From: Leuconostoc kimchii IMSNU 11154
GTDB lineage: Bacteria; Bacillota; Bacilli; Lactobacillales; Lactobacillaceae
Length of the DNA stretch: 64,000 nucleotides
NCBI RefSeq assembly: GCF_000092505.1
Contig: NC_014136.1
Span: 1-64,000, forward strand
Direction: 5' to 3'
In this document: positions 34,359 to 50,836 of the stretch, piece by piece
How the letters are laid out: the number at the start of each line of letters is the position of its first letter
How positions within the stretch are numbered: position 1 is the first letter of the stretch
The notes under the pieces: generated by a model
What the model saw: the letters and a program-made list of their open reading frames with translations, nothing else
The model's database searches: none
Told to the model about the DNA's origin: nothing
Position numbers and translations under genes: made by a program

Positions 34359-36497
34359 CTATTCAACACCCAAAGCCTTAAAAGCAGCTTCTTCAATCGT
34401 ATTATAGAAAATAATTGTAAATGATCCTAGCAAATCGCTAGGGACAGTACCAAAATCGGCAGCTGAGGTCATTGGTAGTAACACTTTCTTTGCACCGCTA
34501 TCCCGTGCAACCTGTAGCGTATCAGCAAGATTCTCAGGCTTAACTACTGATCCGCCAATTGTTAAATCTCCTACAACAACAAGGCTATCAACAGTTGGCT
34601 TTGCGAGACTAATTGAAATCAAAGCAAGGTACGTCGCCAATGACAAATGGTCTGTCATCAAGCCATTATTTAAGTTGGTAGCGTTCAATATAAAGTCATG
34701 TTGTGACAACGAGATAGTACCACTAACCTGGCCTGCATTTGCTTTCAGATACTTATATGCTGTATCCATACTTTCCTTCGCGCCACGGTGACCACCAATA
34801 CCAGTAGTCGCAAACTTGCCGTTACCCGCAGTCATTTGAGTCTCAATCTTAAACAAACTCAGTCGGTTTCCAGCATCATAACCGACTGAGTAAACATGCC
34901 CCGGCTTCTCAGTTCCAACAGGAATTAATGTTGAAGATCCTTGTTCAGGTACTGCGACAAACTTCTCTTCAAACGTTTCATTATCAATGTAACTTAAGTT
35001 CACATCGAAAAACTCCATGCCACCAATTTTCTTAAGTTGTTCCTTAACACGGCGTCGCATTTCAATGGCGAATCGAAGTACTTCTTCAACGTCTTCCTTG
35101 CTAAACTCTCCATGAGGATAGATAAGCTTGATCATTCCAGACACTGTCTTACGAACCGCGATTGTATCACGTTGATTCAATTGATTCCCTAGTTTGAAGT
35201 ACGCTTCGAAAGCATCACCATATGAAATTTTACGCAACTCACGCATCACTTCCGCAAAATAATCAGTGATGAAGCCATATCCCTTTGTAAAAAAAGAAGG
35301 CTTATACTTTGGAATTTCCCAGCCAGGCAAGTAATTATGAATTCGGTCCAAAAATGCCGAATCGTTGGCCATTACATCGGGGAATGGATCAAACAAATGT
35401 GATGTCCGCATAACAACATCTACACTTTGGTTGATATTTCCAACAAACACCATTGACGCACTTGCTTGAATTTCATCCTTGCCTCGTGCGAATGATCCCG
35501 ATGCCATGTAGTCTTTCATAATTTGAACGCCGTCTTTATCTTTAAATGTAATACCCGCTACTTCGTCGAAAGCGACAGTATCCCACATTCCAACCAGCCC
35601 TACTTGGTGGCGGCTCATGTTATAAAACAAGTTTGCAACAGTCGTTTGACCACCTGAAACCAAAATAGAATTTGGTGATAATTCTTTATACACGTGTGAC
35701 TTTCCGGTTCCACGAGGACCCAGTTCCACGAAGTTGTAGTTGTTTTCCACCATTGGAATTAGACGTGAAATGAATAACCACTTTTGTCGCTTTTCAAATT
35801 GAGTTGGTTCCATCCCAATCGTTCGAAGCAACAAATCGATCCACTCGTCCGTAGTGAATTTTTCTCTTCCCTGTCGAACTTCAGACATGTCCAGTCCGGC
35901 AACTTGAATTGGAGTAAGCTTTTCTACATTGAATGGCGCTGTGCTATCACTTTCCATATCATCGTGATAATAACTTAGTCGCACAATCGCCCAGATACCT
36001 CCGCCTAGCAAACGCTCATAATCCTGAGGATAACGTGAATCCACTGGCACTCCCGTAATGCCTAAATTACTGAACGCCGCCTCATACCGATCTAATCGCG
36101 TGTTCAAAGTAACAGTCAATTTATCAATTACGGTATAAGCACCGTTCTCTCGAATTTTTGACTTAATTTTCTCCGCCTCGTCTGGACGAACATAATTGTT
36201 TGCTAGTGTTTTCTTGACGTTTTCTACACCTTGCTCGATAGTTGCTGGATCCGATGAGTTTGCATACATACCAAGCAGATACTCCAACACATAAGACGGC
36301 ACGTTTGCGCCTTCTTTGATTCGCTGCGTCAAATCCTTACGAACAAAACGACCAGGAAAGTTAATTTCCAACTTGTCCAGCAAGTCGAAATTACTATCAC
36401 TCCCAGAGGCTAAAACTTCAGTGGCAGTAATATCTACGTCGTCATTTGAACTCTCTAAGTCATCGTGTAAGTTGTTGTCATCATTAACTAAAGTCAA
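34359..36497 (-). CDS. brxL: BrxL, AAA+/Lon-like BREX protein
   Basis: A 712-residue protein and the last gene of the type 1 BREX set, required for phage exclusion. Best start is TTG at 36497 (MTLVNDDNN), with GGAGG 8 bases upstream; a further in-frame start would overlap pglZ by 38 bases. The AAA+ Walker A is GPRGTGKSH (about residue 265), with FVELGPRG before it and AFDEVAGI as Walker B. The C-terminal Lon-like domain has SLVVVGDLTIGGSVV and ARDSGAKKVLLPM. The canonical Lon Ser context (GPSAG) is absent, reading NNGLMTDHLS, so proteolysis is doubtful. Overlaps pglZ by 14 bases. Confidence 0.93.
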   Translation of the reverse strand: MTLVNDDNNLHDDLESSNDDVDITATEVLASGSDSNFDLLDKLEINFPGRFVRKDLTQRIKEGANVPSYVLEYLLGMYANSSDPATIEQGVENVKKTLANNYVRPDEAEKIKSKIRENGAYTVIDKLTVTLNTRLDRYEAAFSNLGITGVPVDSRYPQDYERLLGGGIWAIVRLSYYHDDMESDSTAPFNVEKLTPIQVAGLDMSEVRQGREKFTTDEWIDLLLRTIGMEPTQFEKRQKWLFISRLIPMVENNYNFVELGPRGTGKSHVYKELSPNSILVSGGQTTVANLFYNMSRHQVGLVGMWDTVAFDEVAGITFKDKDGVQIMKDYMASGSFARGKDEIQASASMVFVGNINQSVDVVMRTSHLFDPFPDVMANDSAFLDRIHNYLPGWEIPKYKPSFFTKGYGFITDYFAEVMRELRKISYGDAFEAYFKLGNQLNQRDTIAVRKTVSGMIKLIYPHGEFSKEDVEEVLRFAIEMRRRVKEQLKKIGGMEFFDVNLSYIDNETFEEKFVAVPEQGSSTLIPVGTEKPGHVYSVGYDAGNRLSLFKIETQMTAGNGKFATTGIGGHRGAKESMDTAYKYLKANAGQVSGTISLSQHDFILNATNLNNGLMTDHLSLATYLALISISLAKPTVDSLVVVGDLTIGGSVVKPENLADTLQVARDSGAKKVLLPMTSAADFGTVPSDLLGSFTIIFYNTIEEAAFKALGVE

Positions 36498-39012
36498 AAT
36501 CGAAACCTCCAGTGATTGCAAGATCCATCGTAAATTCTTCGCGAATTATTTCTTGCTTATTTTCAACATTTTCGACAATCAAGAAGTAACTTTGCGTTTG
36601 ATCATACACTTGGTCCGCGATTACAAAGCGTTTCTTAATAATTCGCTTACTTGGATTTTGGTCATCACTAAACGCATTAATAACTTCCGTAGAAGAAATG
36701 ACGTCACCCGCTTGGTCCACAAACTTCGCTTCAAACGTAGCGCCATTCACGTCGGAACTAATTGGTTGCAATTGGTTAAAGCTGACAATAATAGTTCGAG
36801 AAGTAATGCGGTGTGGGACTGGACTCAGTTGAACTTCCACAGTTTCAGATGTATCTGCCCCACGCTTTGAGTGAACAGCAATCACCGGCACAATCATTTC
36901 TTGTGGCGAAACACCGCCGTGAACGTAATTTTTACCAGCCCCTTGCGACATAAAGACGTTTGCGGAAGTTGGATAGTACACTATTTCCTCTTGGTCATTG
37001 TCCAAAACATCACTAATCGCCACTGAATCAACGCCCGTCTGTTCAAATTTTTCTTTCGAAACGGCGTATCTTGGTGCTTTTTTCATAAAGTTAGCTGGCT
37101 TAAGATCAATCTTATCTGTGGTGTCCAGTTCGGAATCACGATAAATAAATCCATGATCCGCAGTCACAATAAAGTTTGTGCGATTTGCGCTTCTTAACCG
37201 CTTGATAATTGATTGAATTTCGCTGACAGTCTGAGCAGTCGCTTCGAACGTTTTACGTTCGGTTTTTGCATTGTCGCTAATTGCATCAATGCCGTTGTGA
37301 TATACGTAAATAACATCTTTGCCCACGAATTCAGACTTTAGGTCTTCCGTTTTGGTACTCATCACCTTATCTGCAGCAATCGTCATTGATTTAGCATTGC
37401 GTTTTTGCAAAACCAACTCTCTTGAAGCCAAATCTGTTGCTTTAACACCATCCACCAAAACCGTAGGCACCGACGCATCATACGTCAGCTCTTCATGAGG
37501 AAGTAATGACGGCATACCGAAGTATGTCACCGACGGCACGCCGGTAATCATATAATCAACTTCAGCAGATAGTTGATTTTCTCTATTAATAAACTTCGCT
37601 AAATCTTGTCCTGACTCAAACCTCAATGCATCAGAAACAATTACGACAACTGGATTTTTGCTTGAAGCAACCTTGTTTCGATAGAAATTTCTCTGCAATT
37701 TTTGTGATTCAATGGACTTAATATCATACACATCAGACCAGCGCTTAATCATCGGGTTCAAAAAGCCATTTAAATAGCTTTGTTCTACACGTTGTGCAAG
37801 CGTATCAAACGAGTCAAACAATTCAGAATCTAACGTCCAACGATAGTCAACAAACTTACGATATGATGTATCGATATTAGCAAGCCCGTTTTTTGTATCC
37901 ACATACGCTTCTGCAAATTTTTCTACGTTTTCGTAATCACCAAACGCTTTACCAGCTAATACTGGTATCGCCTTTCGAATCATCTTGTACGCCGATTCGT
38001 ACTCATTCGCATACATCGTATCCTGTCGTTCATGAGTCAAGAAACGTAAATCAACCCCATTAGGCTGAAGTTCTGAGTTCACTAAACTAGTAGCAGCCCA
38101 ATCCATGATTTTTAAATCAAAATTTCTAAATACATCAGATTTAATCAAATCATTCATCTCAACGTTTTTAAAAACCGATTCTCCGTTAATAAATTGCCAG
38201 ACTTCATCGGCAATTTGTTTCATACGAGACGTGAAATTAGCCATATTCATCAATTGCGAAACTGCAGCTATAACATTAGTCTTCGCAAACGATTGATAAA
38301 CATTTACTTGGGAAGGAAGATCCAGTTCCATTTGATCGAATGCCGTAATAACAAGCATACCACTTAACAATTCTTTCAACTTCGGCTCTGAAGAAAAATA
38401 ACCAAATTGGCTACTCATTCCTTGCCAAAACTGATCATAAACATTGAATTTTTTAAACTCATTCAACGCTTGATTATCTTCTAAGTCCGTTTGAATAACC
38501 GACTTAAGAATGTCCAGAGATGAAATGCCGTTAGCCTTTGCAAGAGCGGCTAAAATAACAATAACTGGATTGTTAATTTTTCGGTCTTTAGTTAACGCCT
38601 TAAATTTATTAATGCGCTCCTTATTTCCGAAGAACTTCATGTTGTCCACAACAAACTCTTGGTGTTTCTCTTCCAGTCCTAATTCTTCACGAAGCATTAC
38701 AGTTGCGTCCGCTGTAAATTCAACCGAGTAGCGTTCTACATCGGCCATTAAATTTTGTGATAAGCCAGGCTTTTTTGCAGGCGAATATATTAATGCAGCT
38801 TCCCCATTCTTCTCAAGACTCAAAACCTCTAACTTAGTCTTAAATTGTTCACCCGGAAGCATTTCAATTGTCGTTTGAGTCAATTGTGCAGTGATTTCTC
38901 CGATATTATCTGCGAAATCCGCATTTGCGTCATACCAAAAAACAAACTGTTTTCCTTGCGCGAATAACGTACGAATTCGTTCAACAATCTCCCCTGTATT
39001 TAATTCAACCAT
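36484..39012 (-). CDS. pglZ: PglZ, alkaline phosphatase-superfamily BREX protein
   Basis: An 842-residue BREX core protein. The C-terminal half is the alkaline phosphatase-like domain: VVVIVSDALRFESGQDLA holds the metal-binding Asp, and NFIVTADHGFIYRDSE holds the second metal site (Asp-His). The N-terminal half carries the usual helical region with FVFWYDANADFADNI. It starts about 100 bases from the start of the silent pglX cassette on the other strand, so a separate promoter for pglZ-brxL must lie in 39013-39107; TATAAT (read leftward) is visible there. Confidence 0.95.
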   Translation of the reverse strand: MVELNTGEIVERIRTLFAQGKQFVFWYDANADFADNIGEITAQLTQTTIEMLPGEQFKTKLEVLSLEKNGEAALIYSPAKKPGLSQNLMADVERYSVEFTADATVMLREELGLEEKHQEFVVDNMKFFGNKERINKFKALTKDRKINNPVIVILAALAKANGISSLDILKSVIQTDLEDNQALNEFKKFNVYDQFWQGMSSQFGYFSSEPKLKELLSGMLVITAFDQMELDLPSQVNVYQSFAKTNVIAAVSQLMNMANFTSRMKQIADEVWQFINGESVFKNVEMNDLIKSDVFRNFDLKIMDWAATSLVNSELQPNGVDLRFLTHERQDTMYANEYESAYKMIRKAIPVLAGKAFGDYENVEKFAEAYVDTKNGLANIDTSYRKFVDYRWTLDSELFDSFDTLAQRVEQSYLNGFLNPMIKRWSDVYDIKSIESQKLQRNFYRNKVASSKNPVVVIVSDALRFESGQDLAKFINRENQLSAEVDYMITGVPSVTYFGMPSLLPHEELTYDASVPTVLVDGVKATDLASRELVLQKRNAKSMTIAADKVMSTKTEDLKSEFVGKDVIYVYHNGIDAISDNAKTERKTFEATAQTVSEIQSIIKRLRSANRTNFIVTADHGFIYRDSELDTTDKIDLKPANFMKKAPRYAVSKEKFEQTGVDSVAISDVLDNDQEEIVYYPTSANVFMSQGAGKNYVHGGVSPQEMIVPVIAVHSKRGADTSETVEVQLSPVPHRITSRTIIVSFNQLQPISSDVNGATFEAKFVDQAGDVISSTEVINAFSDDQNPSKRIIKKRFVIADQVYDQTQSYFLIVENVENKQEIIREEFTMDLAITGGFDFDFS

Positions 39013-39107: not shown

Positions 39108-39243
39108 AATTATTGTTCACCCCCAGCTATCACGATGGGGTCATTAAGGACTTGATTGATGGTATTCCTGAGAGTGATTTTGATGTGCAACTTGAAGGCC
39201 AAGTTGAAATTATTGGCTGGCTCTACCAGTACTATAATGAAGA
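39108..39243. repeat. Inverted repeat IR1, copy in the silent pglX cassette
   Basis: 136 bases that match, inverted, 45279-45414 inside pglX, with 4 mismatches by eye. It covers the first codons of the cassette (FTPSYHDGVIKDLIDGIPES). The left edge begins AATTATTGTTCACC in both copies, three bases before the first cassette codon. Confidence 0.92.
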
Positions 39244-41146
39244 GTCGAAAGATAAAGCTATCGGTCAACCTAAATCTCATAAGTTTCGAGATGTTGAAAT
39301 AGCTTCAGTAACACAAATTTTTACTCCAGATTGGATCGTTAAGTATATGGTCCAAAATTCAGTGGGTAAATACTGGATGAACGTTCTTAAAACTCGTCCT
39401 TCCTTTACAAGTGAGAAGGAAATCGCTCAAAATTTCGGTTGGGAATATTACATGGAAGATGCAGATCAACCCATCGATGTTGAAACCAATCTTTCTGTTG
39501 AGAACGATATCTTGAACAAAGATATTCAGAAACTAAAAGTGCTAGATCCATCAATGGGAAGTGGACACATTTTAGTGTATGCGTTTGACTTGTTAATGGA
39601 TATTTATCAATCGGAAGGCTATTCAAAGAATGAAGCCGCAACATCTATTTTAAATAATAATTTATTTGGGATGGATATTGATAGACGAGCATTCCAATTG
39701 GCTTATTTCGCTTTGATGATGAAATACAGGCAATATGTCCGACGTGGGTTGTCTGATGAAAATTCTGCCCACGTTTACGATATTCCAAGCACTTCTGGTT
39801 TTGATGCTTTGGATTTTGCTGCAATTGAAGAAACATTCAGCAATCCGGTTGCATTAGAAATTAAAAAAGTACTAAACAGGTTTGAACATGGGGATGAACA
39901 GGGGTCACTTTTAAACACTGATGATATCGATTTCAATGTGATTGAAGACGCATTGGCAGATTTGAAAAACAGTTCTATCCCTCTTGATTTAATTAACGTA
40001 ATTGATACGCTGGAAAACTCATTGGTAGTTGGGCAAACGTTATCAGCTATGTACGAGGTAGTGATCACAAATCCTCCGTATATGGGATCTTCTAGAATGA
40101 ATAGTTCCCTATCTGATTTTGCCAAGAAGCAATTTCCAAATTCGAAATCAGATTTATTCGCAATGTTCATGGAGCATTATAATGGACGTATCGTAAAAAA
40201 TGGTTACAATGCTATGGTAACTATGCAGTCTTGGATGTTTTTATCTAGTTTTGAAACTATGAGAACGTACCTTTTGGAAAAATTCACAATTTCAAATTTG
40301 ATGCACATGGAAAACAACGTTATGGGTATTGCGTTTGGTACAGCCGTTACGATTGTTCGAAATGTGAACCTTCCCACCTTTGTTGGAACGTATCATCAAA
40401 TAAAAACTTCTGATGCTTCGGGTAAAGTGCCAAAAAATTTACCTGTTTATGGTAATAGGTATAATCGAACTAACCAAGCGAATTTTAAGAAGATTCCTGG
40501 TAGTCCGATTGCGTATTGGGTAAGTGCTAATTTGATTCATGACTTTGAAGTTGGCACTAGAATGGACAAAATAGTAGAACCTCGTCAAGGTCTTGCAACT
40601 GCAGATAATAACAGATTTTTGCGCCAGTGGTTTGAAGTTTCATTAAACAATATTAAGTTTGACGCTAAATCAATCGATGAATCGATCTCATCAAACAAAA
40701 AATGGTTTCCATATAACAAAGGTGGTTCCTATCGTAAATGGTACGGCAACTATGATTATGTTGTTAATTGGGAGAATAACGGTGCCAAAATTCGTAATTT
40801 TACAGATGCCAAAGGAAAAGTCAGATCCCGTCCACAAAACACAAATTATTACTTCCGTGAAGCAATAACCTGGTCGGATGTGAATAGTGGTCATTTTTCG
40901 TTGCGATATCGCGAATTTGGATCGATACACGATGTTAAAGGGATGTCTGCTTTTAGTACAGATAAATCAGTTTTTGAATATATATTGTCATTATTAAATT
41001 CACCCGTTGGGGAATACATTTTCAAAATGCTGAATCCAACTATTAGTTTGCAAATAGGAAACTTCCAAACTTTTCCTGTTTTAGGAATCCATGCTGATTC
41101 AACGGCTATTAAAGCATTTGCTCATCGCAATATTAGTCTCAGTCGC

Positions 41147-41232
41147 AATGATTGGGACTCATTCGAGATATCTTGGAACTTTAAAATGCATCCGTTGATT
41201 CGTCATATCGATGAACATAATCGAAATTGGAA
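41147..41232. repeat. Inverted repeat IR2, copy in the silent cassette
   Basis: 86 bases that match, inverted, 43338-43423 in pglX with about 4 mismatches. Encodes NDWDSFE(I/T)SWNFKMHPLIRH and the following IDEHNRNWN in both copies. It sits at the downstream end of the variable region. Confidence 0.9.
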
Positions 41233-41300
41233 TATCACCCCTATACTTAACCACTGTAATGTGCCAAACTTGAGCCAAAAAATATTTTTGGAGGTCAACT

Positions 41301-42383
41301 ATGGTTAGTTATCGAAAGCGTGGCTCAGTCTGGCAGTATGAAATTTCATATAAAGATACATCTGGTAAATATAAAAAGTTGCGAAAATCTGGGTTTCCTA
41401 GAAAATCAGACGCCATTTCTGCAGCAGCTCAACTCCAAACAAATCATCCAAATTTAATTTCATTTCAATCTGGCAAACAGCTTTTCTCAGATTACTTCGA
41501 ACACTGGATAAATCTGTATAAAAAGCCTACCGTTTCAAAGATAACCTTTATTAAATATCAAAATACATTGCAACATGCAAAACAATTATTTAAGGGAATT
41601 CGCCTTTCTGATCTTTCTCGTACTGTGTACCAACAGAAAATCAATAAATTTTCAGAAACACATAGCATCCGTACGGTACACACATTTCACAAGCAACTAA
41701 AATCCGCACTTCTTGATGCATTCGATGAAAAAATCATCTCTATTGATCCCACGAGAAAAACTGTAATTAACGGGACTCCACCTCGCAAGCAGCGCATGAC
41801 ATTAGACTACAAAGAGACCAAGCTACTTGTTAAACATCTTGATTTAAATATGCTAGAAGACCTTGTAATCTACGTTGCAATCGTGACCGGAATGCGCTTC
41901 GCCGAAATATTAGGACTAACTCCTGCTGACATAGACACCCAGAACAATATAATTTCAATAACTAAAACTTGGGACTATAAGTTTAATAGTGGATTCAAAC
42001 CAACTAAGACGAAATCATCTCAAAGGGACATCGTCGTAGATTCCGAGACAATTAAAGCTATTCAAAAATTTGTCAGCCATCACAAGATTCCGGAAACGAA
42101 TCCAATTTTCGTATATAACAGTCATAGCATCGTCAGCGCCGAAATAAATAAGATTCTCTCTTCCAAATTGAATGGATTAGGCATCGCAAGAATTCCGTTT
42201 CACGGACTTAGACACACTCATGCATCAATTTTGTTGTACAGCGGGGTAAATCTCCTTTCTGTGTCAAAGAGACTAGGCCACAGCAATGTTACCACAACAC
42301 AGCAGACATACTTGCACATTATTAAAGAAATGGAAGAACAGGACGATAACAAAATAATAATCCTTCTTCAAGCTATAAAATAA
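41301..42383 (+). CDS. Tyrosine recombinase next to the pglX cassettes
   Basis: A 360-residue integrase-family recombinase. The N-terminal AP2-like arm domain is RKRGSVWQYEISYKDTSGKY. Catalytic residues: Arg199 (TGMRFAEILGL), His301 and Arg304 (HGLRHTH), His327 (GHSNVTTTQQ) and Tyr337 (TYLHI). The set is complete, so the enzyme should be active. The start overlaps the cassette stop by 8 bases, and GGAGG lies 6 bases before the ATG. Its place between inverted pglX copies makes DNA inversion at IR1 and IR2 its probable job; capture from a prophage or ICE integrase is likely. Confidence 0.92.
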   Translation: MVSYRKRGSVWQYEISYKDTSGKYKKLRKSGFPRKSDAISAAAQLQTNHPNLISFQSGKQLFSDYFEHWINLYKKPTVSKITFIKYQNTLQHAKQLFKGIRLSDLSRTVYQQKINKFSETHSIRTVHTFHKQLKSALLDAFDEKIISIDPTRKTVINGTPPRKQRMTLDYKETKLLVKHLDLNMLEDLVIYVAIVTGMRFAEILGLTPADIDTQNNIISITKTWDYKFNSGFKPTKTKSSQRDIVVDSETIKAIQKFVSHHKIPETNPIFVYNSHSIVSAEINKILSSKLNGLGIARIPFHGLRHTHASILLYSGVNLLSVSKRLGHSNVTTTQQTYLHIIKEMEEQDDNKIIILLQAIK

Positions 42384-42402
42384 TTGGCACAATATTTGGC
42401 AC

Positions 42403-42436
42403 AAAAAAGGAGATTCCAAAATTGGAATCTCCTTTT
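42403..42436. terminator. Bidirectional terminator between recombinase and pglX
   Basis: AAAAGGAGATTCCAA (42405-42419) pairs perfectly with TTGGAATCTCCTTTT (42422-42436). It serves both convergent genes. Just before it, TTGGCACAA occurs twice in 20 bases (42384-42404), resembling the 3' context of phage-type integrase genes. Confidence 0.93.
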
Positions 42437-42439
42437 CCA

Positions 42440-45400
42440 CTATTTTATTTTTGTTAACAACTTTTGTCCGTCTTGGATCTTTACATGATTTTCGACCACA
42501 CCATCATCTAAATCAATTTCAATTCGTGCCGTCGCTAAGTGTTGCAATACTTGATCAAACATTTTCATTTCATCAATTTGATTTGTTAAACGAGTTACTT
42601 TCTTTTCGTAAACCTTACGAATCTTTGCTACTGTTTCTGATTCAACAAGTGATTCGAAATTGGCCAGTGCGTTTTCATAGGCTTCCTGAAGTGGCAACAA
42701 ATAGTCCGTCCTTATCATTCCTGTTGTGTCGGCATCATAACGGTGAACATACATCAATGCTCGTAACCCTTCTTTCTTTCCAGAGTTATATTCCCAGTAG
42801 ATGGGCCTCTTTGAGTACACAGAGACATGATCTGCATAAAAATCTTTGATGAAGTATTGCCGAATCTTTTCTTCCGCGGTGCCGCCACCTTTGCCGACAA
42901 TTTGAGCGATATATTCTAGATTTGCCTGAACATTCTCATTTCCAAATGCAACTCTCAAGAACTCTTTCAAACGATTGATAATGTCCCGAGAATCATTAAA
43001 GTATGCATCATCAGACAAAATCAGAACATTATCCTTATTAGGTTGGAAAGACTTGTATTGATCAGAATTCCAATCGCCACCAGCATAAATCAATCCCGGC
43101 ACATCCAAAGAATAACGTCCAAATACAAGTCCCACGAAATATGATAAGAACGACTTTATATCACGAACCTCGTCTGCTAAGCGCACGGAAACATCCTTGT
43201 TCGCTACGTCTGGTGTCAATTCGTCTTGCAGACCATATAAATCAATAAAAATACGGTTTAATTCTTCTTCATTGTCCTTCAATTGATCAAATCTATCTTG
43301 TGTTTCACTTTTCCACACTTCAAAAGCTTCTTTAAGGTTCCAATTTCGATTATGTTCATCGATATGACGTATCAATGGGTGCATTTTAAAGTTCCAAGAT
43401 GTCTCGAATGAGTCCCAATCATTTTTAGAAATTGCGACTGCTCCAGTCACCTTCTCATTTATTTCAGGATTATCAATAGCCTTATCAAGGACTGGGAAAC
43501 TATTAAAGTCACCAATTTGCAAATTGATGGTTGGATTTAACATTTTAAACACATGATTTCCGATTGGAGTGTTCATCAGGCCAAGAATGTTCATTAACTT
43601 ATCATGACTTGATGAGAATGCAGACATCCCCGAAACATCATGTATACTACCAGCGCTCCTATATCTTATGCTGAATCCACCCGAAGTAATTAGAGACCAG
43701 GTTATTGCTTCACGGAAGTAATAATTAGGATTTCGAACAACGGAACGTTGCTTGCCGTTTGGAAATTTAAAATTCTTAATGTCTTGGCCATCATTCTCCC
43801 AATTAACTACATAGTCATAGTTTCCGTACCACTTTCGATATGCCCCCCCTTTGTTGTAAGGGAACCATTTTTTGTTTGATGAGACCGATTCGGGGATGTT
43901 TTTAGCATCGACCGCAATTTTAGCGTAACTAACTTCAAACCATTGACGTAAAAATACCGAATTATCGCCAGTTTGCAATCCAACTCTCGGTTCGACTAAT
44001 GTATCCATTTGTTGACCAATCTCAAAATCTCTTAACAAATTATCTGAAGCCCAATAGGCAATAGGACTACCCGGAATTTTATTGAAATTCGATTGGTTAG
44101 TTCGATATAGATAATCAACATCGGGATTTTCAATCGCTTCTAATGTTTTCACTTTTTGAACGTCCATGCCACCTTTAAAGTCAGACAATTTAATATACAC
44201 ACCATTTTCCGATGTGCTTGAATTTTTTAAAACAAACGTATTGATAGGAACTGTAGCTTCTTCAAAGGCAGAATACTCCATTTGAATCAGGCTAGAAATT
44301 AGTTTAGTGTTCAAAATTGACTTTCGCAAATTCTCGTAACTCTTTATGAACATCCATACAAATGGAGTCATATATGCGGCATATCCGTTGGTCACTGTCA
44401 TGTTGATGTTGTGCCAAATAAAAACGGAAAACAAATCACTTGAATAATCTTTATAATGCGTTTTCACATATTCTTTCAGGACCTTGTTCATTTTGTTTAG
44501 ATATGGCGGGTTCGTGATGACTGCTTCGTACTTATTTTGCATTGTTTCAACTATGTCTAACAGACGCAATAGTTGATAAGTAATTTCACGAGTGTTGTTT
44601 AAGTCTAGCGAAGTGTCCTGTGGAATGTTAGTTAGAACTGTTCGCAAATTACCTGTTTTTACAGGTTTATCGATTTGAATGATTGATCCTAGCGTACGTG
44701 AATCATGGAAAAGAGACACAATGTATTTCAAATCTTGAATGTTAGATTCAGACACAGGTAGACTTTCGAAATAGTTGTCATTGATGTTTGAAGTGTCCTC
44801 AAAAACATAAACCTTTGGTGAAATATTCGAAGTTAAAGCTCGACGATTATACTCGCGAGCTTTCATCATAAGTGCAAAGTAAGCCAGTTGATAAGCGCGT
44901 TTATCTATTTCCAATCCAAATAAATTGTTTTCAAGAATTAGGCTTGATGCTTCGCGAGACGAATACCCTTGCTCAGCATACATCTTCATCAAAACATCAA
45001 ATGCGTACACGAGAATGTGTCCTGAACCCATTGCGTTATCAATTACTTTAATTTGGGTAACGTCTAAATCATCAGAAACCATCTCCAAGCTATCAGGAAG
45101 TAAAAATTCTAGATGAGTTCCTAACTCTGAATGAGCATTACGTTCAAGATAATATTTTCCCAATGAGTTATCAACCATATATCGAACAACCCAGTCAGTA
45201 GTAAATAGTTGTGTGGCTGCAGGTATGTCATTAGTTTTGACAGTACCTCCATTTATATTTACTACTGCATTATGAGGTTCTTCATTATAGTACTGGTAGA
45301 GCCAGCCAATAATTTCAACTTGACCTTCAAGCTGCACATCAAAGTCACTCTCTGGAATACCATCAATCAAGTCCTTAATGACCCCATCGTGATAGCTGGG

Positions 45401-45991
45401 GGTGAACAATAATTGCATGTAATCACTGGTACGCTCAAACAGATAAGGCAAATTGTCATTCAATGCATTAGCTTGCTTAATGAATAGCATTGTATACGCC
45501 TTATCCAAGTCTTCTGGAATTTCAGTATCAAGTGCTTTAGCTAACAAAGCACGTTGATTGCTGTTAAATCCGCGCAAATCGTCTTCAATATCAAACGCTT
45601 CTGTCAAAATATCAGGCTCTGTACGCCCATTTTCAGATGATAGAACTCGTGTTTTAGATGGTAAATAGTCATTAACTTCCATAAATCGAATCGCAATAAT
45701 TCGATTGAACCAGGTATATGCTACCTCTTCAATAAAGTCCTGAAGCAACGTATTCCAATCCTCAGCTACACGTGACTTTAAGTGGCTCACTAGTTCACGG
45801 CGTAACCTGATATCATCACCACTAATCTCGTAAGCCAACTCACCATAATACTCGATTTCAGCTGTTGATTCCGCACGTTTTTCTTGAATGCCATCTTCAT
45901 CAATACCAAGTAGCCCTAGCTTATTCGTAATATCACGAATCAAGTCACGACGTGCTTTAACGGCAAAATTATTTATTGCCCGTTTGTCCAT
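42440..45991 (-). CDS. pglX: PglX, BREX N6-adenine DNA methyltransferase
   Basis: A full-length 1183-residue BREX methyltransferase that marks host DNA at the BREX site and is needed for defence. The SAM-binding region is IDNAMGSGHILVYAFDVL (321-325 MGSGH) and the catalytic motif is NPPY (494-497). The target-recognition region follows (about 550-850), then a conserved C-terminal domain of about 300 residues. IR1 covers residues 193-238 and IR2 857-885, so both the catalytic and recognition parts lie between the repeats. It is transcribed leftward after brxC with a 61-base gap holding a hairpin. The expressed version now is this one. Confidence 0.95.
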   Translation of the reverse strand: MDKRAINNFAVKARRDLIRDITNKLGLLGIDEDGIQEKRAESTAEIEYYGELAYEISGDDIRLRRELVSHLKSRVAEDWNTLLQDFIEEVAYTWFNRIIAIRFMEVNDYLPSKTRVLSSENGRTEPDILTEAFDIEDDLRGFNSNQRALLAKALDTEIPEDLDKAYTMLFIKQANALNDNLPYLFERTSDYMQLLFTPSYHDGVIKDLIDGIPESDFDVQLEGQVEIIGWLYQYYNEEPHNAVVNINGGTVKTNDIPAATQLFTTDWVVRYMVDNSLGKYYLERNAHSELGTHLEFLLPDSLEMVSDDLDVTQIKVIDNAMGSGHILVYAFDVLMKMYAEQGYSSREASSLILENNLFGLEIDKRAYQLAYFALMMKAREYNRRALTSNISPKVYVFEDTSNINDNYFESLPVSESNIQDLKYIVSLFHDSRTLGSIIQIDKPVKTGNLRTVLTNIPQDTSLDLNNTREITYQLLRLLDIVETMQNKYEAVITNPPYLNKMNKVLKEYVKTHYKDYSSDLFSVFIWHNINMTVTNGYAAYMTPFVWMFIKSYENLRKSILNTKLISSLIQMEYSAFEEATVPINTFVLKNSSTSENGVYIKLSDFKGGMDVQKVKTLEAIENPDVDYLYRTNQSNFNKIPGSPIAYWASDNLLRDFEIGQQMDTLVEPRVGLQTGDNSVFLRQWFEVSYAKIAVDAKNIPESVSSNKKWFPYNKGGAYRKWYGNYDYVVNWENDGQDIKNFKFPNGKQRSVVRNPNYYFREAITWSLITSGGFSIRYRSAGSIHDVSGMSAFSSSHDKLMNILGLMNTPIGNHVFKMLNPTINLQIGDFNSFPVLDKAIDNPEINEKVTGAVAISKNDWDSFETSWNFKMHPLIRHIDEHNRNWNLKEAFEVWKSETQDRFDQLKDNEEELNRIFIDLYGLQDELTPDVANKDVSVRLADEVRDIKSFLSYFVGLVFGRYSLDVPGLIYAGGDWNSDQYKSFQPNKDNVLILSDDAYFNDSRDIINRLKEFLRVAFGNENVQANLEYIAQIVGKGGGTAEEKIRQYFIKDFYADHVSVYSKRPIYWEYNSGKKEGLRALMYVHRYDADTTGMIRTDYLLPLQEAYENALANFESLVESETVAKIRKVYEKKVTRLTNQIDEMKMFDQVLQHLATARIEIDLDDGVVENHVKIQDGQKLLTKIK
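43338..43423. repeat. Inverted repeat IR2, copy in pglX
   Basis: 86-base partner of 41147-41232, opposite orientation. Homologous recombination or recombinase action here would exchange the 3' part of the gene. Confidence 0.9.
45279..45414. repeat. Inverted repeat IR1, copy in pglX
   Basis: 136-base partner of 39108-39243, opposite orientation, 4 mismatches by eye. Identity stops sharply at AATGAAGA on one side and AATTATTG on the other. The interval between the IR1 copies (6.3 kb) is the largest invertible segment. Confidence 0.92.
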
Positions 45992-46052: not shown

Positions 46053-49000
46053 TTAGATGTTCAAATCAATAAATGATGTTTTCCCATCATTTAGTTGTGC
46101 CAAAATTCGTTGCTTTAATTCTGCTAGTTGCACATCCAAGTCCGACTCAGAAGTAATGTGCCAGCTCGTTGCACCGGTATAATCACGTAAACTTTCGAAG
46201 CGTGGAATCTTGACTGGTCCAGCAGGTTTACTTTGCACTTCATCCCCATCTTCATGAGTAACAGGCAGCACTTGCCGCTTCGCCACTTCTGACTGAACTT
46301 TAGCCATCAATTGATTAAGCTTTGAACTAGCCAACGGTAGCTTACCATTCAAAGTTTCTAAATCAACAGCCTCAGTAGCCTGAGATCGAATGTTTTCCAT
46401 TTCAGAAATATAATCTGACGTTAACAGTGACTTTGTAGAATCGCTCAAATCAGTCTCAGAAATCAGCGTTTCTCCACGTTCTTGGTAATCCTGTACCCTC
46501 AAGATTACTCTTTGTTGTTCATCATCCAGAACCGAGTTAAACAGGTTTGAAAACTCTTCATTCTTTGCTTTAACATCTTGCACTTTCTTAGCCGTGCCTG
46601 ATTTGATTAACGATTCCAAGTTGTCTACAAGTTCATTTAGCTCAACATTCGTGATAAAGCCTTCGGAACGATGATAAATATCAACATTCTTTATTCCTTG
46701 CTCCCAGATTGCTTGAGAAGATTTATTACCATAAAAGTCCTTAACATCTTTGTCTTCCATAGCTTCATGCCAATCAAGCAATTCTTCCTCCATAGACGAC
46801 ATTTGCGCATAAAATTCGGCCGTATCTTTCACACCCAGCAATCGCTTGAGCAACTGAATTCCCTTTTGCAATTCAACGTGCCCAGGGAATTTTGAATCAC
46901 GCCCCTCGTAATCTGACAATCGGTCATATTCATACTTGATTGTTGCATCTCGCAATTCAAGCACCATACCATCGTCTGTCTCATCCTGAAAGGCGCGCTT
47001 ACCAAAGACCTCTTTAGCCAAATTTTTCAACGTCTTACGTTGCTTCATCGGAATATCTTGCTTAATCGTCAATGCGAGTCTCTTTTGATTCTTTAAGAAC
47101 AAATCAGCTTTTTGCTTATTAGAATAATGTTCATCCTTAACAAGGATTTTTTCACCATCACTCTCAATGTCTATTTTACCGTCAACGAACAGCTTAGCAA
47201 CTAGCCATTGCGTATCAATTGGTGAGAATCCATATGGAATAGCTTGAAATTGCGAAATAATGGTTTCCAATGACACTTTAGGATTCTTTGTCAGTTCTTT
47301 AGATATCTTGTTTTTTACATCTTCCAATGCATTTTGATTTACATCGGCCGCATCCAATACCATGTCGTCATCAGATGCGAAAAGTGAAACGATGTCACGG
47401 TCTGTATGTGTCTGAACCAAATCATTTAACTTTCGGAATGTGTTTCCAACAACATTTTTCATTCCTGATTCCAAACGCGTCTTTATGACGCTACCCTCAA
47501 TTTGATTTCCATTAACAAATACACGCGCCTCTGAAAGTGCATCAAGCGCATGTTTCTTAGCGGCATCCATCAAGCTTTTTCGTTCTTCTGATTGCACGCT
47601 AATCAATTGGCTAGCTTTAGAATCAAGCGAGGATGATCGGCTGAGGTACTGCGCAATTCGAATAGCCTGACGTAATTCATCAATATACTCAGCATTATTT
47701 GGCAAATCAATCACTAGAGTGTTAGATTCTGTACTCTCCATCTCAAGCTTCACATCAACATTATTCATGTCATTCAGTGGCGTGATGACCTTCATATTTA
47801 GTGCGTTTCGATTTGAACCTTGAAGATACTCATCCACAAATGTGTTGAACTTAAAGTTATAGTTTTTCCCCATTCCATCCGGTGTGAATGTAGTAGCCAT
47901 TTCAGCAAACAAGAAATCACCCAAACTTTTATCAACATCACTGTCATTAACCATTTGCTTGTCAATTTGTCGTTTAATATCTTGTTCTGTGTTAGTAAGG
48001 AATTCGTATCCCTTTGTCGTTTTTTCAACAAAACCTTGCTTAATCAGTACATTCAGTGCGTCTTCAACACGCTTACGCAATTCAATAACATCTTCATCAT
48101 TGCTTGAAATCAACAAGGTTGTAATTCCATCGATATTTTTTTCGAAAGAATCAACGTGCTTCACCATGAACAACGTTTGTAGAACACGAAGGGCAAACGG
48201 ATTTTTCTCTTCATTCGGATTCACCGCTTCATTTTTCTCAGCGTTCGAAATAACAATGCGGTGTTCGTGATCAATAAATCCCTCAAGCCCATCGTAGAAT
48301 GAACTAAATGGAATGAGCGTACTGGTGTCGTCTTCGCCAACCTTTTCTGCAGACTCTTTGAAAATAGCCAGCATAGAGCGTTCACCTTCTGACAAGTGTT
48401 TCCCGTCAGATCCGTGTTCTCGCACCGCTGTCAAAACTGATTGCAACAGCTCGAACTGATAAGGTACGAATGGATACACGTCTGCATAATCCTGAGCAGA
48501 CTTGTACTTTCGCCACTTACGCTCACTACCAAAGTTAAACTTATTCAAAATGGCCTGCTTATTGTTTTCAAAGTCACCTTCCAAGAATCCAGCAGCATCA
48601 TTTGTTTTTGCGAGCAATCGCTTCTTAATTACTTCGGCAACGTCTGCAGAACTCATAGAAATCTTTGTATCAAATCGGCCTTGAATCTTTGAAAAATCAG
48701 TACCACTTAAATTAGTGGTAACCTCATCAATTGCTTGCTGAGAAGTAACCATTACCCAAGCTTTTCCGCCAGTGGCAACACCGAGCTCTTCGACAATTGT
48801 TTGAAGATTCAACATGCGCTTAATATCATCACCAATAAATTGACCAACCTCGTCCACTAGGAACACAACGTGGTGATTGTCGCCCTTAGCATTGATATAG
48901 GTAGCAACACGCTCTGCAAAATCTTTAATATTCAGTTCGTAATCTGCATGGAAATTAGGCATATCATATTGATATCCAACTTGCTTCAAAGCTGGTTCGA

Positions 49001-49637
49001 TTGCAATTTTCTCCTCAAATGCATAACGATCACGGCCCTTCTCCCAATCATCATGCTTAGGATTCAATTCCTTATAAGCAGCCTTAAAGTCATCATATAG
49101 TCCGTCTGCAACGAGCATTTGTTCCATGTCAGCTAGCCAAAAGTTTTTGTCCGTAAAACCTTGCATCTTATTAAAGACTTGCAAAAACACGTTACGAATG
49201 GCATTTTCAGAGGACTTATTGCCTGATTTTGATTCAGAGTCAATGTTAAACAAAATAACATCCGAAGGAACACTAGCTGCCAAATCCATATTAGCAATTG
49301 TCATCGGGTCAGCAACCTTATTTTGCTGCTTGAAAAATTCGACCGCACTCATGCCATCAACCTGAACTTTAGAATTCAAAAGGTATGACAAGATTTTAAG
49401 GAAGTGAGACTTACCAGAGCCGAAGAAACCAGAAATCCAAACACCCATCTTGTCTGTCGTACCGTTAATTCCTTTTTGATATGCATCAAAAAAATCAGCG
49501 AAATAACGTTGCAACTCAGACGTCACAACATACTCATCTAAATCCTGTTTAATGGTTTGGACATCATCCTGTCCCACCTTGATAACCCCTTGAATATCAC
49601 GGGTAATATCCTTTTCAAAAATATCTTGAATTTTCAT
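46053..49637 (-). CDS. brxC: BrxC, BREX P-loop ATPase
   Basis: A 1194-residue ATPase of the BREX core (the PglY counterpart). Walker A is GFFGSGKS (70-77) in GVWISGFFGSGKSHFLK, and Walker B is VVFLVDEVGQFIGDD (about 255-270). Long helical and coiled regions fill the middle; the C-terminus ends with the small conserved WHITSESDLDVQLAEL region. It starts 17 bases after brxB. Confidence 0.96.
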   Translation of the reverse strand: MKIQDIFEKDITRDIQGVIKVGQDDVQTIKQDLDEYVVTSELQRYFADFFDAYQKGINGTTDKMGVWISGFFGSGKSHFLKILSYLLNSKVQVDGMSAVEFFKQQNKVADPMTIANMDLAASVPSDVILFNIDSESKSGNKSSENAIRNVFLQVFNKMQGFTDKNFWLADMEQMLVADGLYDDFKAAYKELNPKHDDWEKGRDRYAFEEKIAIEPALKQVGYQYDMPNFHADYELNIKDFAERVATYINAKGDNHHVVFLVDEVGQFIGDDIKRMLNLQTIVEELGVATGGKAWVMVTSQQAIDEVTTNLSGTDFSKIQGRFDTKISMSSADVAEVIKKRLLAKTNDAAGFLEGDFENNKQAILNKFNFGSERKWRKYKSAQDYADVYPFVPYQFELLQSVLTAVREHGSDGKHLSEGERSMLAIFKESAEKVGEDDTSTLIPFSSFYDGLEGFIDHEHRIVISNAEKNEAVNPNEEKNPFALRVLQTLFMVKHVDSFEKNIDGITTLLISSNDEDVIELRKRVEDALNVLIKQGFVEKTTKGYEFLTNTEQDIKRQIDKQMVNDSDVDKSLGDFLFAEMATTFTPDGMGKNYNFKFNTFVDEYLQGSNRNALNMKVITPLNDMNNVDVKLEMESTESNTLVIDLPNNAEYIDELRQAIRIAQYLSRSSSLDSKASQLISVQSEERKSLMDAAKKHALDALSEARVFVNGNQIEGSVIKTRLESGMKNVVGNTFRKLNDLVQTHTDRDIVSLFASDDDMVLDAADVNQNALEDVKNKISKELTKNPKVSLETIISQFQAIPYGFSPIDTQWLVAKLFVDGKIDIESDGEKILVKDEHYSNKQKADLFLKNQKRLALTIKQDIPMKQRKTLKNLAKEVFGKRAFQDETDDGMVLELRDATIKYEYDRLSDYEGRDSKFPGHVELQKGIQLLKRLLGVKDTAEFYAQMSSMEEELLDWHEAMEDKDVKDFYGNKSSQAIWEQGIKNVDIYHRSEGFITNVELNELVDNLESLIKSGTAKKVQDVKAKNEEFSNLFNSVLDDEQQRVILRVQDYQERGETLISETDLSDSTKSLLTSDYISEMENIRSQATEAVDLETLNGKLPLASSKLNQLMAKVQSEVAKRQVLPVTHEDGDEVQSKPAGPVKIPRFESLRDYTGATSWHITSESDLDVQLAELKQRILAQLNDGKTSFIDLNI

Positions 49638-49654: not shown

Positions 49655-50233
49655 TTAATTAATTTGTGTTGCTCGATAGTAATTATCGTCGTTTAACTCG
49701 CCAAACATACTTAGTTTAATGTTATCGAACTTTCCAGGATAAAACAACACAACTGGCATGTAGTCAATCACTTGTGTCATTGTATTTAAAATTTTGTGTG
49801 TACGGACAAGCGGGAAAATTTGTCCAATCCCCTCAATAAAGATAATATCCTCATCCGGATTAACTCGACTCTTAATGTATTCGACAAATCGATTATTTTC
49901 TTCGTTTGTAGCCATTAAATTGTTAATTTGCTCAATAACAAAGTCCATCCCTTGTTCTTTTTCGAATTGATAAATTATTTCCGTATACCCAAATTCATTC
50001 AGAGTATCCATCATAATATCGAACAAGTTGAACAGCTTAATATTCATTTGATGCTCACCATATGGTCCGCCATTGACAATTTGATTAGTCTCATCACGTA
50101 CATACAACTCATCTTGAGGACGGTAATCAAGGATAAAGTATGGCACCTCACCTGAAAGACCGTGATGGGCTGTTAAGCCGTCCACTTTTAGTCTGTGCCT
50201 CAAATTTTCAAATTTCTCAGTCAGTTCACTCAA
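49655..50233 (-). CDS. brxB: BrxB
   Basis: A 192-residue BREX core protein (DUF1788 type), with KFENLRHRLKVDGLTAHHGLSGEVPYFILDYRP near the start and the characteristic IIFIEGIGQIFPLVRTHKIL followed by MPVVLFYPG. It has no known catalytic residue; in other systems it contacts other BREX proteins. Three bases separate it from brxA. Confidence 0.95.
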   Translation of the reverse strand: MSELTEKFENLRHRLKVDGLTAHHGLSGEVPYFILDYRPQDELYVRDETNQIVNGGPYGEHQMNIKLFNLFDIMMDTLNEFGYTEIIYQFEKEQGMDFVIEQINNLMATNEENNRFVEYIKSRVNPDEDIIFIEGIGQIFPLVRTHKILNTMTQVIDYMPVVLFYPGKFDNIKLSMFGELNDDNYYRATQIN

Positions 50234-50236
50234 TTT

Positions 50237-50836
50237 CTATACTCCTGTAAATGCGGTTATGTAAATCCCTAGATTTTCTTTTTCCAATTCAATTAAAACT
50301 TGTGAATCTAGCAAATGTCGCTGAATAATATCCACGCCTTGTTCGTCAACAACACTTAGGCCAGACGAACGTACGAAATTTTTTAACAGCACTAGCATTC
50401 GTCGTTTCGTTTCATTCGTCCAGTTATCGACAATTTCGCTTTCGCCTTCTTTGCGTCGCATAAAAGCTTTCCACTCATAATCTTCTATTTTAGAATCGCC
50501 CAACATAATCTCATTTCGAAAATCTTCAATGATAAAGTCCTCAATCAATTGATTAAGTTTCATTATCGCTGTTAAGTTTATAAGCTTTTGATTTTGTGAA
50601 TCAACATCATTATATAAATTAAGCAGACCATCAGGAATGACCGACAATCGTTGATTCATAGCTTGCGCAACTCGAATACGACTTCCCTTTGATGCCTGAA
50701 GATAAATATTTTCATTCAAGCTCATCTCACGCATTTCAATAGGAGACTTTCCCGCCAAGAATAGATTAACACCTATACCAAATTCTTTTTGCCAGAAAGA
50801 TTGCGACACTTGTCCCGCTGAGTATTTTTTCTTCAT
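50237..50836 (-). CDS. brxA: BrxA
   Basis: A 199-residue BREX protein (DUF1819 type), a small DNA-binding-like helical protein and the first gene of the operon. It starts MKKKYSAGQVSQSFWQKEF and contains NIYLQASKGSRIRVAQAMNQRL. GGAGG lies 4 bases before the ATG. No brxR-type regulator gene is found upstream within the window. Confidence 0.95.
   Translation of the reverse strand: MKKKYSAGQVSQSFWQKEFGIGVNLFLAGKSPIEMREMSLNENIYLQASKGSRIRVAQAMNQRLSVIPDGLLNLYNDVDSQNQKLINLTAIMKLNQLIEDFIIEDFRNEIMLGDSKIEDYEWKAFMRRKEGESEIVDNWTNETKRRMLVLLKNFVRSSGLSVVDEQGVDIIQRHLLDSQVLIELEKENLGIYITAFTGV

Follow-up and report, generated by a model that had tools for sequence, protein, structure and literature searches.

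A defence locus that keeps a second, inverted copy of its own methyltransferase gene raises the question of what is exchanged between the two copies, at which sites, and with what effect on the protein. We addressed this question in Leuconostoc kimchii IMSNU 11154 (assembly GCF_000092505.1; 2.10 Mb in six contigs), in which positions 1 to 64,000 of contig NC_014136.1, the whole stretch of 64,000 nucleotides that we call the window, hold a type 1 bacteriophage exclusion (BREX) cluster. Type 1 BREX systems methylate adenine at N6 within a non-palindromic 6-bp motif. Between the methyltransferase gene pglX and pglZ, the plus strand carries a partial pglX cassette and the gene for a 360-aa tyrosine recombinase. 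We consider it likely that this one recombinase, related to phage integrases, inverts DNA at three nested pairs of inverted sites, which we named S1, Sm and S2. The sites, eight states that are all in frame, swaps among related loci and two genomes in a truncated state are seen in the sequence, and we infer that this recombinase acts at all three sites. The parts of the region are listed below, with NTD, TRD and CTD for the N-terminal, target recognition and C-terminal domains of PglX, and IR for inverted repeat.

39108..39243, plus strand: IR1, cassette copy (repeat search)
39112..39130, plus strand: site S1, cassette copy (arm-N11-arm)
39113..41308, plus strand: partial pglX cassette, 731 aa, with methyltransferase core 2 and TRD 2, without NTD and without CTD
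40464..40483, plus strand: site Sm, cassette copy, at the methyltransferase/TRD border
40679..40777, plus strand: TRD-internal homology block, 87%, near the join of protein P0001
41147..41232, plus strand: IR2, cassette copy (repeat search)
41207..41225, plus strand: site S2, cassette copy
41301..42383, plus strand: tyrosine recombinase, 360 aa, with N-terminal arm-binding domain and GGAGG before its ATG
42384..42403, plus strand: two TTGGCACA repeats 12 bp apart, proposed arm-type binding sites
42405..42436, plus strand: terminator-like hairpin of 14 pairs between the convergent recombinase and pglX
42440..45991, minus strand: full-length pglX, 1183 aa, with NTD, methyltransferase core 1, TRD 1 and CTD
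43338..43423, minus strand: IR2, pglX copy (repeat search)
43345..43363, minus strand: site S2, pglX copy
44087..44106, minus strand: site Sm, pglX copy, with one mismatch to the cassette copy at the core edge
45279..45414, minus strand: IR1, pglX copy (repeat search)
45392..45410, minus strand: site S1, pglX copy

All open reading frames (ORFs) of the locus are intact in the window, and the start of the recombinase gene overlaps the stop of the cassette. The initial annotation of this DNA had placed pglX and a partial pglX head to head around a complete recombinase, as in the invertible pglX layout of lactobacilli, and the ORFs bear this out; the recombinase has a Phage_integrase domain with the catalytic residues H301xxR304 and Tyr337. 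The repeat search also recovered both of its inverted repeats, IR1 at 136 nt and 97% identity and IR2 at 86 nt and 95%. Chance was rejected as their origin: IR1 has about 4 mismatches over its 136 nt, and 25 of the 34 loci of relatives described below have a listed pair of the IR1 kind (129-260 nt, 94-100% identity). A two-level inversion at IR1 and IR2 had been proposed on these grounds; both pairs are real, and a third, Sm at 40464-40483(+)/44087-44106(-), had been missed. The Sm pair sits inside a 57-nt inverted match of 88% identity.

The three crossover site pairs emerged from the comparison of 34 recombinase loci of 33 related genomes. A recombinase search (E <= 1e-90) was positive in 34 of 397 genomes of the family, and 34 loci were fetched from the other 33, since one genome, G290, carries the locus at both contig ends. 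Synonymous codon identity was then compared along pglX between 28 invertible genes, including three from loci with TRD-only cassettes (L114, L130, L141), and 39 non-invertible genes, distant controls that may include L056 with its own inverted pglX copies. The largest synonymous excess over these controls fell at residues 871-885, 191-205 and 626-640. In the invertible set alone, scanned in one-codon steps, the top intervals were 875-884 (0.79), 628-637 (0.79) and 193-202 (0.72), against a mean of 0.437 (standard deviation 0.076) and 0.62 for the fourth-ranked interval. The aligned DNA gave the consensus ATYG-TTCACNCCNAR-CTAT for S1, ATCG-AACTAACCAAR-CGAAY for Sm and ATCG-CTGANSATAAN-CGAAA for S2. 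All three roughly match WTMG-N11-CKAW, an imperfect palindrome with weak outer arms and differing cores. Because the 11-nt cores differ, like would recombine with like, as tyrosine recombinases require like cores.

The Sm pattern was found in 34 of the 397 family genomes (61 places) and its reversed control in none, and 31 of these 34 genomes also carry the recombinase. G114 has the Sm pattern without a full recombinase match; a cassette is present there, and the contig end cuts through the recombinase. In G023 and G244 the pattern was matched with no pglX in the fetched stretches, which contig ends cut. Conversely, G026, G087 and G192 carry the recombinase without the exact Sm pattern. One family pglX that lacks this recombinase, L151, encodes similar peptides at the positions of Sm and S2 with different codons. 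Separately, Sm-like patterns lie near contig ends in L168 and L169, with no pglX match within the fetched stretch, and a one-base insertion in the Sm core shifts the frame of the silent L118 cassette. We considered whether the TRD-internal block holds a fourth recombinase site and rejected this: no outstanding synonymous peak occurs there, so homology is the likelier cause of joins in that block.

The window pglX aligns nearly end to end with the solved PglX/BrxX. E. coli BrxX is divided into NTD (1-210), methyltransferase (211-650), TRD (651-837) and CTD (838-1205), with hinge loops at 638-675, in the cited sections of PMC11842806. By alignment to this protein, S1 lies about 20 residues before the NTD/methyltransferase border, Sm within the hinge, and S2 about 30 residues past the TRD/CTD border. 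Since the sites lie near these borders, NTD and CTD would stay constant, while the methyltransferase core and TRD would be exchangeable; a swap would be expected to alter the methylated motif.

We then modelled, in silico, the inversion of the window at each possible combination of S1, Sm and S2. All eight states were in frame, and the four states counted in the initial annotation become eight with three nested pairs. Even numbers of inversions gave proteins of 1183, 1183, 1199 and 1199 aa with the CTD present, whereas odd numbers gave 909, 909, 925 and 925 aa with the CTD absent. Two earlier predictions held here: inversion at IR1 alone truncates PglX (the S1-only inversion yields 925 aa with an unrelated tail at the end), and inverting a second time brings the C-terminus back (1199 aa). 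Each inversion moves the recombinase gene to the other strand. In even states it and pglX converge, separated by the terminator-like hairpin; in odd states it lies directly behind pglX, co-directional, with GGAGG before its ATG. Given this position behind pglX, expression of the recombinase would be expected to be higher in the odd states.

These results suggest the following scheme. The recombinase would act on S1, Sm and S2 in an expressed pglX and a silent pglX cassette. The innermost block, made up of the CTD and the recombinase gene, would be flipped by every inversion, so that an even count would leave a full-length PglX and an odd count a CTD-less PglX, with the recombinase behind pglX in the direction of the brx operon. 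Because charge-reversal mutations in the CTD region abolished defence by E. coli BrxX (cited sections of PMC11842806), CTD-less PglX is likely inactive, and the truncated forms would be OFF. A second BREX layout was seen in L162-L165, where an ORF of its own, beyond the inverted region, encodes the PglX CTD; as PglX ends near S2 there, a break at this point is apparently tolerated provided that the CTD is made.

We extend this scheme only tentatively, at somewhat less than an even chance, to a self-correcting shuffler in which one inversion would switch BREX off and put the recombinase under the brx operon promoter, and a second would switch BREX on and cut the recombinase. Since the CTD and the recombinase would be flipped by every inversion, any single inversion would switch BREX off; a second inversion at any site would switch it on again, with the old or a new specificity. 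The four full-length combinations would be reachable only via transient OFF states. The recombinase would be phage-derived and arm-binding, and the ATYG arm shared by S1 and Sm would allow rare S1 x Sm deletions that leave TRD-only cassettes.

The distribution among relatives fits this coupling of completeness and orientation. A close pglX (E <= 1e-120) is present in 52 genomes, which include all 34 with the recombinase, and pglX pieces adjoin the recombinase in 34/34 of the fetched loci. With full orientation taken as NTD and CTD on the same strand, 27 of the 34 genomes are full, two are truncated (L119, L142) and five are cut by contig ends; G290 was counted as one genome, and L125 and L126 as two of the 27. 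The recombinase is on the strand opposite pglX in 28/28 full loci and on the same strand in 2/2 truncated loci. By their annotation, four loci on plasmids show full orientation as well, and two of these, L170 and L171, share 16.5 kb of identical sequence. More than one orientation state thus exists in nature, between relatives; since assemblies record one state each, the counts are not frequencies. That relatives stand in different states, two of them truncated, supports the part of the initial annotation that had the core swapped via CTD-less forms. The two BREX copies of G290 (L131, L144) were rejected as evidence of switching: they are the same locus in the same orientation at 99% identity, probably an untrimmed overlap between the two ends of one long contig. 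L126, a 99.9% copy of L125, was left out of the synonymous, motif, segment-pair, fold, arm-repeat and tree comparisons, L144 out of the segment-pair, arm-repeat and tree comparisons, and L143 and L145 out of the tree. Seven loci with the same layout (L033-L036, L043, L049, L058) overlap with the 34 and were not added. At the order level, the recombinase was found at E <= 1e-85 in 9/395 genomes, six of which are family members already counted.

Swaps seen in nature among near-identical loci agree for the most part with the three sites, most clearly in two plasmids. A Levilactobacillus brevis plasmid locus (L170) and a Lactiplantibacillus plantarum plasmid locus (L172) have flanks of 99.5% and 99.0% identity and a collinear recombinase-CTD block (94%), and their methyltransferase cores are exchanged between pglX and cassette both ways, at 98% and 91%. 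Of these two tracts, the 98% one begins at S1 and stops 36 bp beyond Sm. Between L123 and L128, the TRD tract from Sm to S2 is on opposite sides while the remaining alignable DNA is collinear; the other TRDs have no match at 85%. The methyltransferase part of the core and the TRD are therefore exchangeable independently of each other. In L119 versus L127 the CTD-recombinase block is inverted, and in L119 versus L122, as in L129 versus L132, the core is on opposite sides. Among segment pairs of at least 80% identity, six methyltransferase pairs were on the same side and three swapped, and no TRD pair was on the same side and two were swapped; few groups supply the swapped pairs, not all of which are independent.

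The homologous proteins, of which the best 120 of 7991 were examined, add further forms. P0001 is a near-identical chimera of the window genes, following the cassette for about 535 residues and then pglX (97-100% per 30 residues). Among the matches listed, P0001 and P0100 start at S1 and have a CTD and no NTD, and P0020, P0043 and P0102 keep the NTD and stop just past S2; these two types are what the truncated states would yield. The nearest named partial protein among the matches listed is from Weissella confusa (98% over 445 aa). In P0002 and P0003, whose longest contigs are equal in length, the cores of the full and the partial gene are near-identical, which reflects either homogenised copies or an assembly effect.

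Two stocks of Lacticaseibacillus rhamnosus GG are also informative. Between KCTC 5033 and ATCC 53103, silent single-nucleotide polymorphisms (SNPs) lie in the partial pglX (2158707 C>T, 2158710 G>A) and, given for the plus strand, in the full pglX (2164871 A>G, 2164868 T>C; Table 1 of PMC6256098). On the gene strands the changes are reciprocal and their gene positions differ by 585 nt (195 codons), in keeping with IR1; one more SNP, 2158719 C>T, is unpaired. The cited part of PMC6256098 does not interpret these SNPs; we infer an exchange or gene conversion at IR1 in these stocks.

Several observations weigh against inversion by the recombinase at all three sites. The assemblies hold one state per genome, and the swaps compare species or plasmids rather than one culture. 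Eleven family pglX genes without the recombinase, the closest control, reach 0.65, 0.65 and 0.52 synonymous identity at the three sites over a baseline of 0.547, which is high because several are close relatives, so that they stand apart less clearly by number; the site motif is visibly missing from them. The S2 cassette copies of many relatives end in CTATC or have a diverged outer arm. The Sm copies of the window differ by one core-edge base. Finally, some tracts overrun Sm: the 91% tract of L170/L172 goes about 400 bp beyond it into the TRD, that of L129/L132 extends about 400 bp past it, and P0001 is joined about 75 codons beyond it, in the TRD-internal homology block. Owing to these three cases, homologous recombination or gene conversion probably also acts.

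Taken further, this becomes the strongest rival, in which the inverted pglX copies exchange mainly by gene conversion or RecA-dependent homologous recombination and the recombinase is a passenger or serves S1 only. The join of P0001 within a homology block speaks for it, as do long tracts of 80-95% identity that, in several systems (e.g., L117, L129, L137), reach from Sm into the TRD. However, homology leaves unexplained why different genera conserve the same three short DNA words at synonymous positions, the recombinase adjoins pglX pieces in every locus fetched from relatives, and the L123/L128 tract begins at Sm and ends in S2; we therefore regard this rival as improbable. Less probable again is the original two-level switch with four states at IR1 and IR2 only. 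These are indeed the best-matched pairs in the window, where the Sm copies carry their mismatch, but Sm is strongly conserved in relatives and swaps bounded by it are observed. A frozen locus with an inactive recombinase and a relic cassette is very unlikely: relatives do show decay (recombinase and pglX in L145, the 1-bp Sm insertion of L118, the pglX ORF in L130 and L131/L144), but the window ORFs are intact with catalytic residues present, the IR1 copies are 97% identical, and P0001 is a near-identical chimera of both window genes. Inversion at three sites by one recombinase thus remains our preferred reading.

The recombinase itself is built as an arm-binding integrase, with an N-terminal Arm-DNA-bind_4 domain and putative arm-type repeats. 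In 29/33 loci the recombinase stop is followed by a pair of repeats that contain GGCAC (TTGGCACA in the window), with a spacing of 12 bp in 27 loci and 11 in 2; the exceptions are L122 and L135 (one repeat altered), L143 (contig end) and L145 (decayed). The same pair lies behind the integrases of L007, L166 and the phages 4995_1 and bIL309. Neither the shorter recombinases that we examined, among them the one linked to hsdS in this genome, nor eight more distant full-length integrases (L021-L030) are followed by the pair; some of the latter have other repeats there. Given the pairs behind phage integrases and the Arm-DNA-bind_4 domain, the repeats are probably arm-type sites. In a 67-row tree of uncertain rooting, the pglX recombinases form one clade (99/91), whose neighbour, with weaker support (93/78), is the group of recombinases from the split-CTD loci. 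L166, outside the family, has a recombinase without pglX nearby; L006, also outside it, was used only in the arm-repeat and tree comparisons.

Variation among relatives also concerns the cassette and the integrity of pglX. The cassette of the window holds a methyltransferase core and a TRD; five relatives (L114, L130, L134, L141, L143) have TRD-only cassettes that start at the Sm core. In L134, sequence that lies outside S1 in Levilactobacillus-type loci continues directly into the Sm core, as an S1-Sm deletion at the shared arm would leave it, and the other four have unrelated flanks at this place. Among full-orientation loci, pglX is broken in L130, L131/L144 and L145, with the recombinase also damaged in L145. 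The split-CTD loci L162-L165 carry an inverted partial pglX and a shorter recombinase, with an extra TRD copy in L162, L163 and L165. Fifteen proteins among the matches listed, from Ligilactobacillus murinus and Vagococcus fluvialis among others, have 888-896 aa and similar ends (PLI, KLI, PIV) and may be of the same kind. L056, from Methanobrevibacter, has several inverted pglX/TRD copies with repeats of 69-80% and no matching recombinase in the stretch.

The remaining genes of the BREX cluster flank the inverted region:

34359..36521, minus strand: brxL
36484..39012, minus strand: pglZ, just beyond the invertible region and divergent from the cassette
46053..49637, minus strand: brxC
49655..50233, minus strand: brxB
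50237..50836, minus strand: brxA

The type 1 cluster is complete on the minus strand, in the order brxA-brxB-brxC-pglX, the inverted region, then pglZ-brxL; PADLOC scored both pglX pieces as PglX and recognised BrxA, BrxB, BrxC, PglZ and BrxL. The cassette had been called promoterless, which is unsupported, because a promoter scan of the region gave 14 sites against 14.1 expected, not above shuffles. Terminator-like sites (2 against 1.9 expected) were likewise no more numerous than in shuffles. The gap between recombinase and pglX folds at -16.5 to -36.3 kcal/mol in the 31 of 34 loci that were folded, values without a shuffled control. Elsewhere in this genome, on contig C6 at about 544 kb (L146), hsdM stands with two head-on hsdS half genes, a 62-bp inverted repeat of 95% and a related recombinase (~44%), a probable second invertible methylation locus, of hsdS type.

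The analysis turns a known oddity, the second inverted pglX, into a testable machine with sites at nucleotide level, eight states and a rule linking completeness to orientation. It may show which parts of PglX are modular, a matter of relevance to the engineering of BREX specificity, and points to a possible route by which a defence system changes its recognition motif without facing its own unmethylated chromosome at full strength.

Goldfarb and colleagues reportedly noted the inverted pglX pair in the type 1 BREX of L. rhamnosus GG in 2015. The initial annotation was right that such a pair with a recombinase is known in lactobacilli: the layout of full pglX, partial pglX and integrase is described for L. 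rhamnosus, including GG, with PglX heterogeneity cited as phase variation (PMC7513527). The cited sections of that account do not give crossover sites, a third site, truncated states, arm repeats or an even/odd rule. We did not find the three sites or the even/odd rule described in the open-licence papers searched, nor the separate TRD exchange or the arm repeats; our additions to the known layout are the heterospecific sites, the separate TRD exchange, the even/odd coupling and the arm repeats. In Lacticaseibacillus paracasei Zhang, one eight-gene BREX cassette holds two methyltransferases, and N6-methyladenine was lost on inactivation of pglX only, not of the second, for which the authors proposed a regulatory role (PMC10164179). 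This fits a silent cassette if the second gene is a partial pglX, which we assume; inversion is not mentioned in the sections of that paper cited here.

The integrases of phages 4995_1 and bIL309 share 40-44% identity with the window recombinase over nearly its full length, as well as the paired TTGGCACA after the stop; they lie within phage genomes, whereas the window recombinase lies inside the invertible segment of a defence locus. A functional parallel is the pneumococcal cod/SpnIII hsdS locus with PsrA, in which one tyrosine recombinase and three inverted repeat pairs likewise rearrange the specificity genes of a DNA methyltransferase, with IR1-like sequences inside IR2 and IR3 (PMC7096588); arm-type repeats are not described in the cited part of that account. 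There the target is hsdS of a type I restriction-modification system, while in the window it is BREX pglX, so the locus is not an hsdS system but would work alike. Unlike cod/SpnIII, the window locus would exchange the catalytic core too, and every inversion would remove or restore the CTD.

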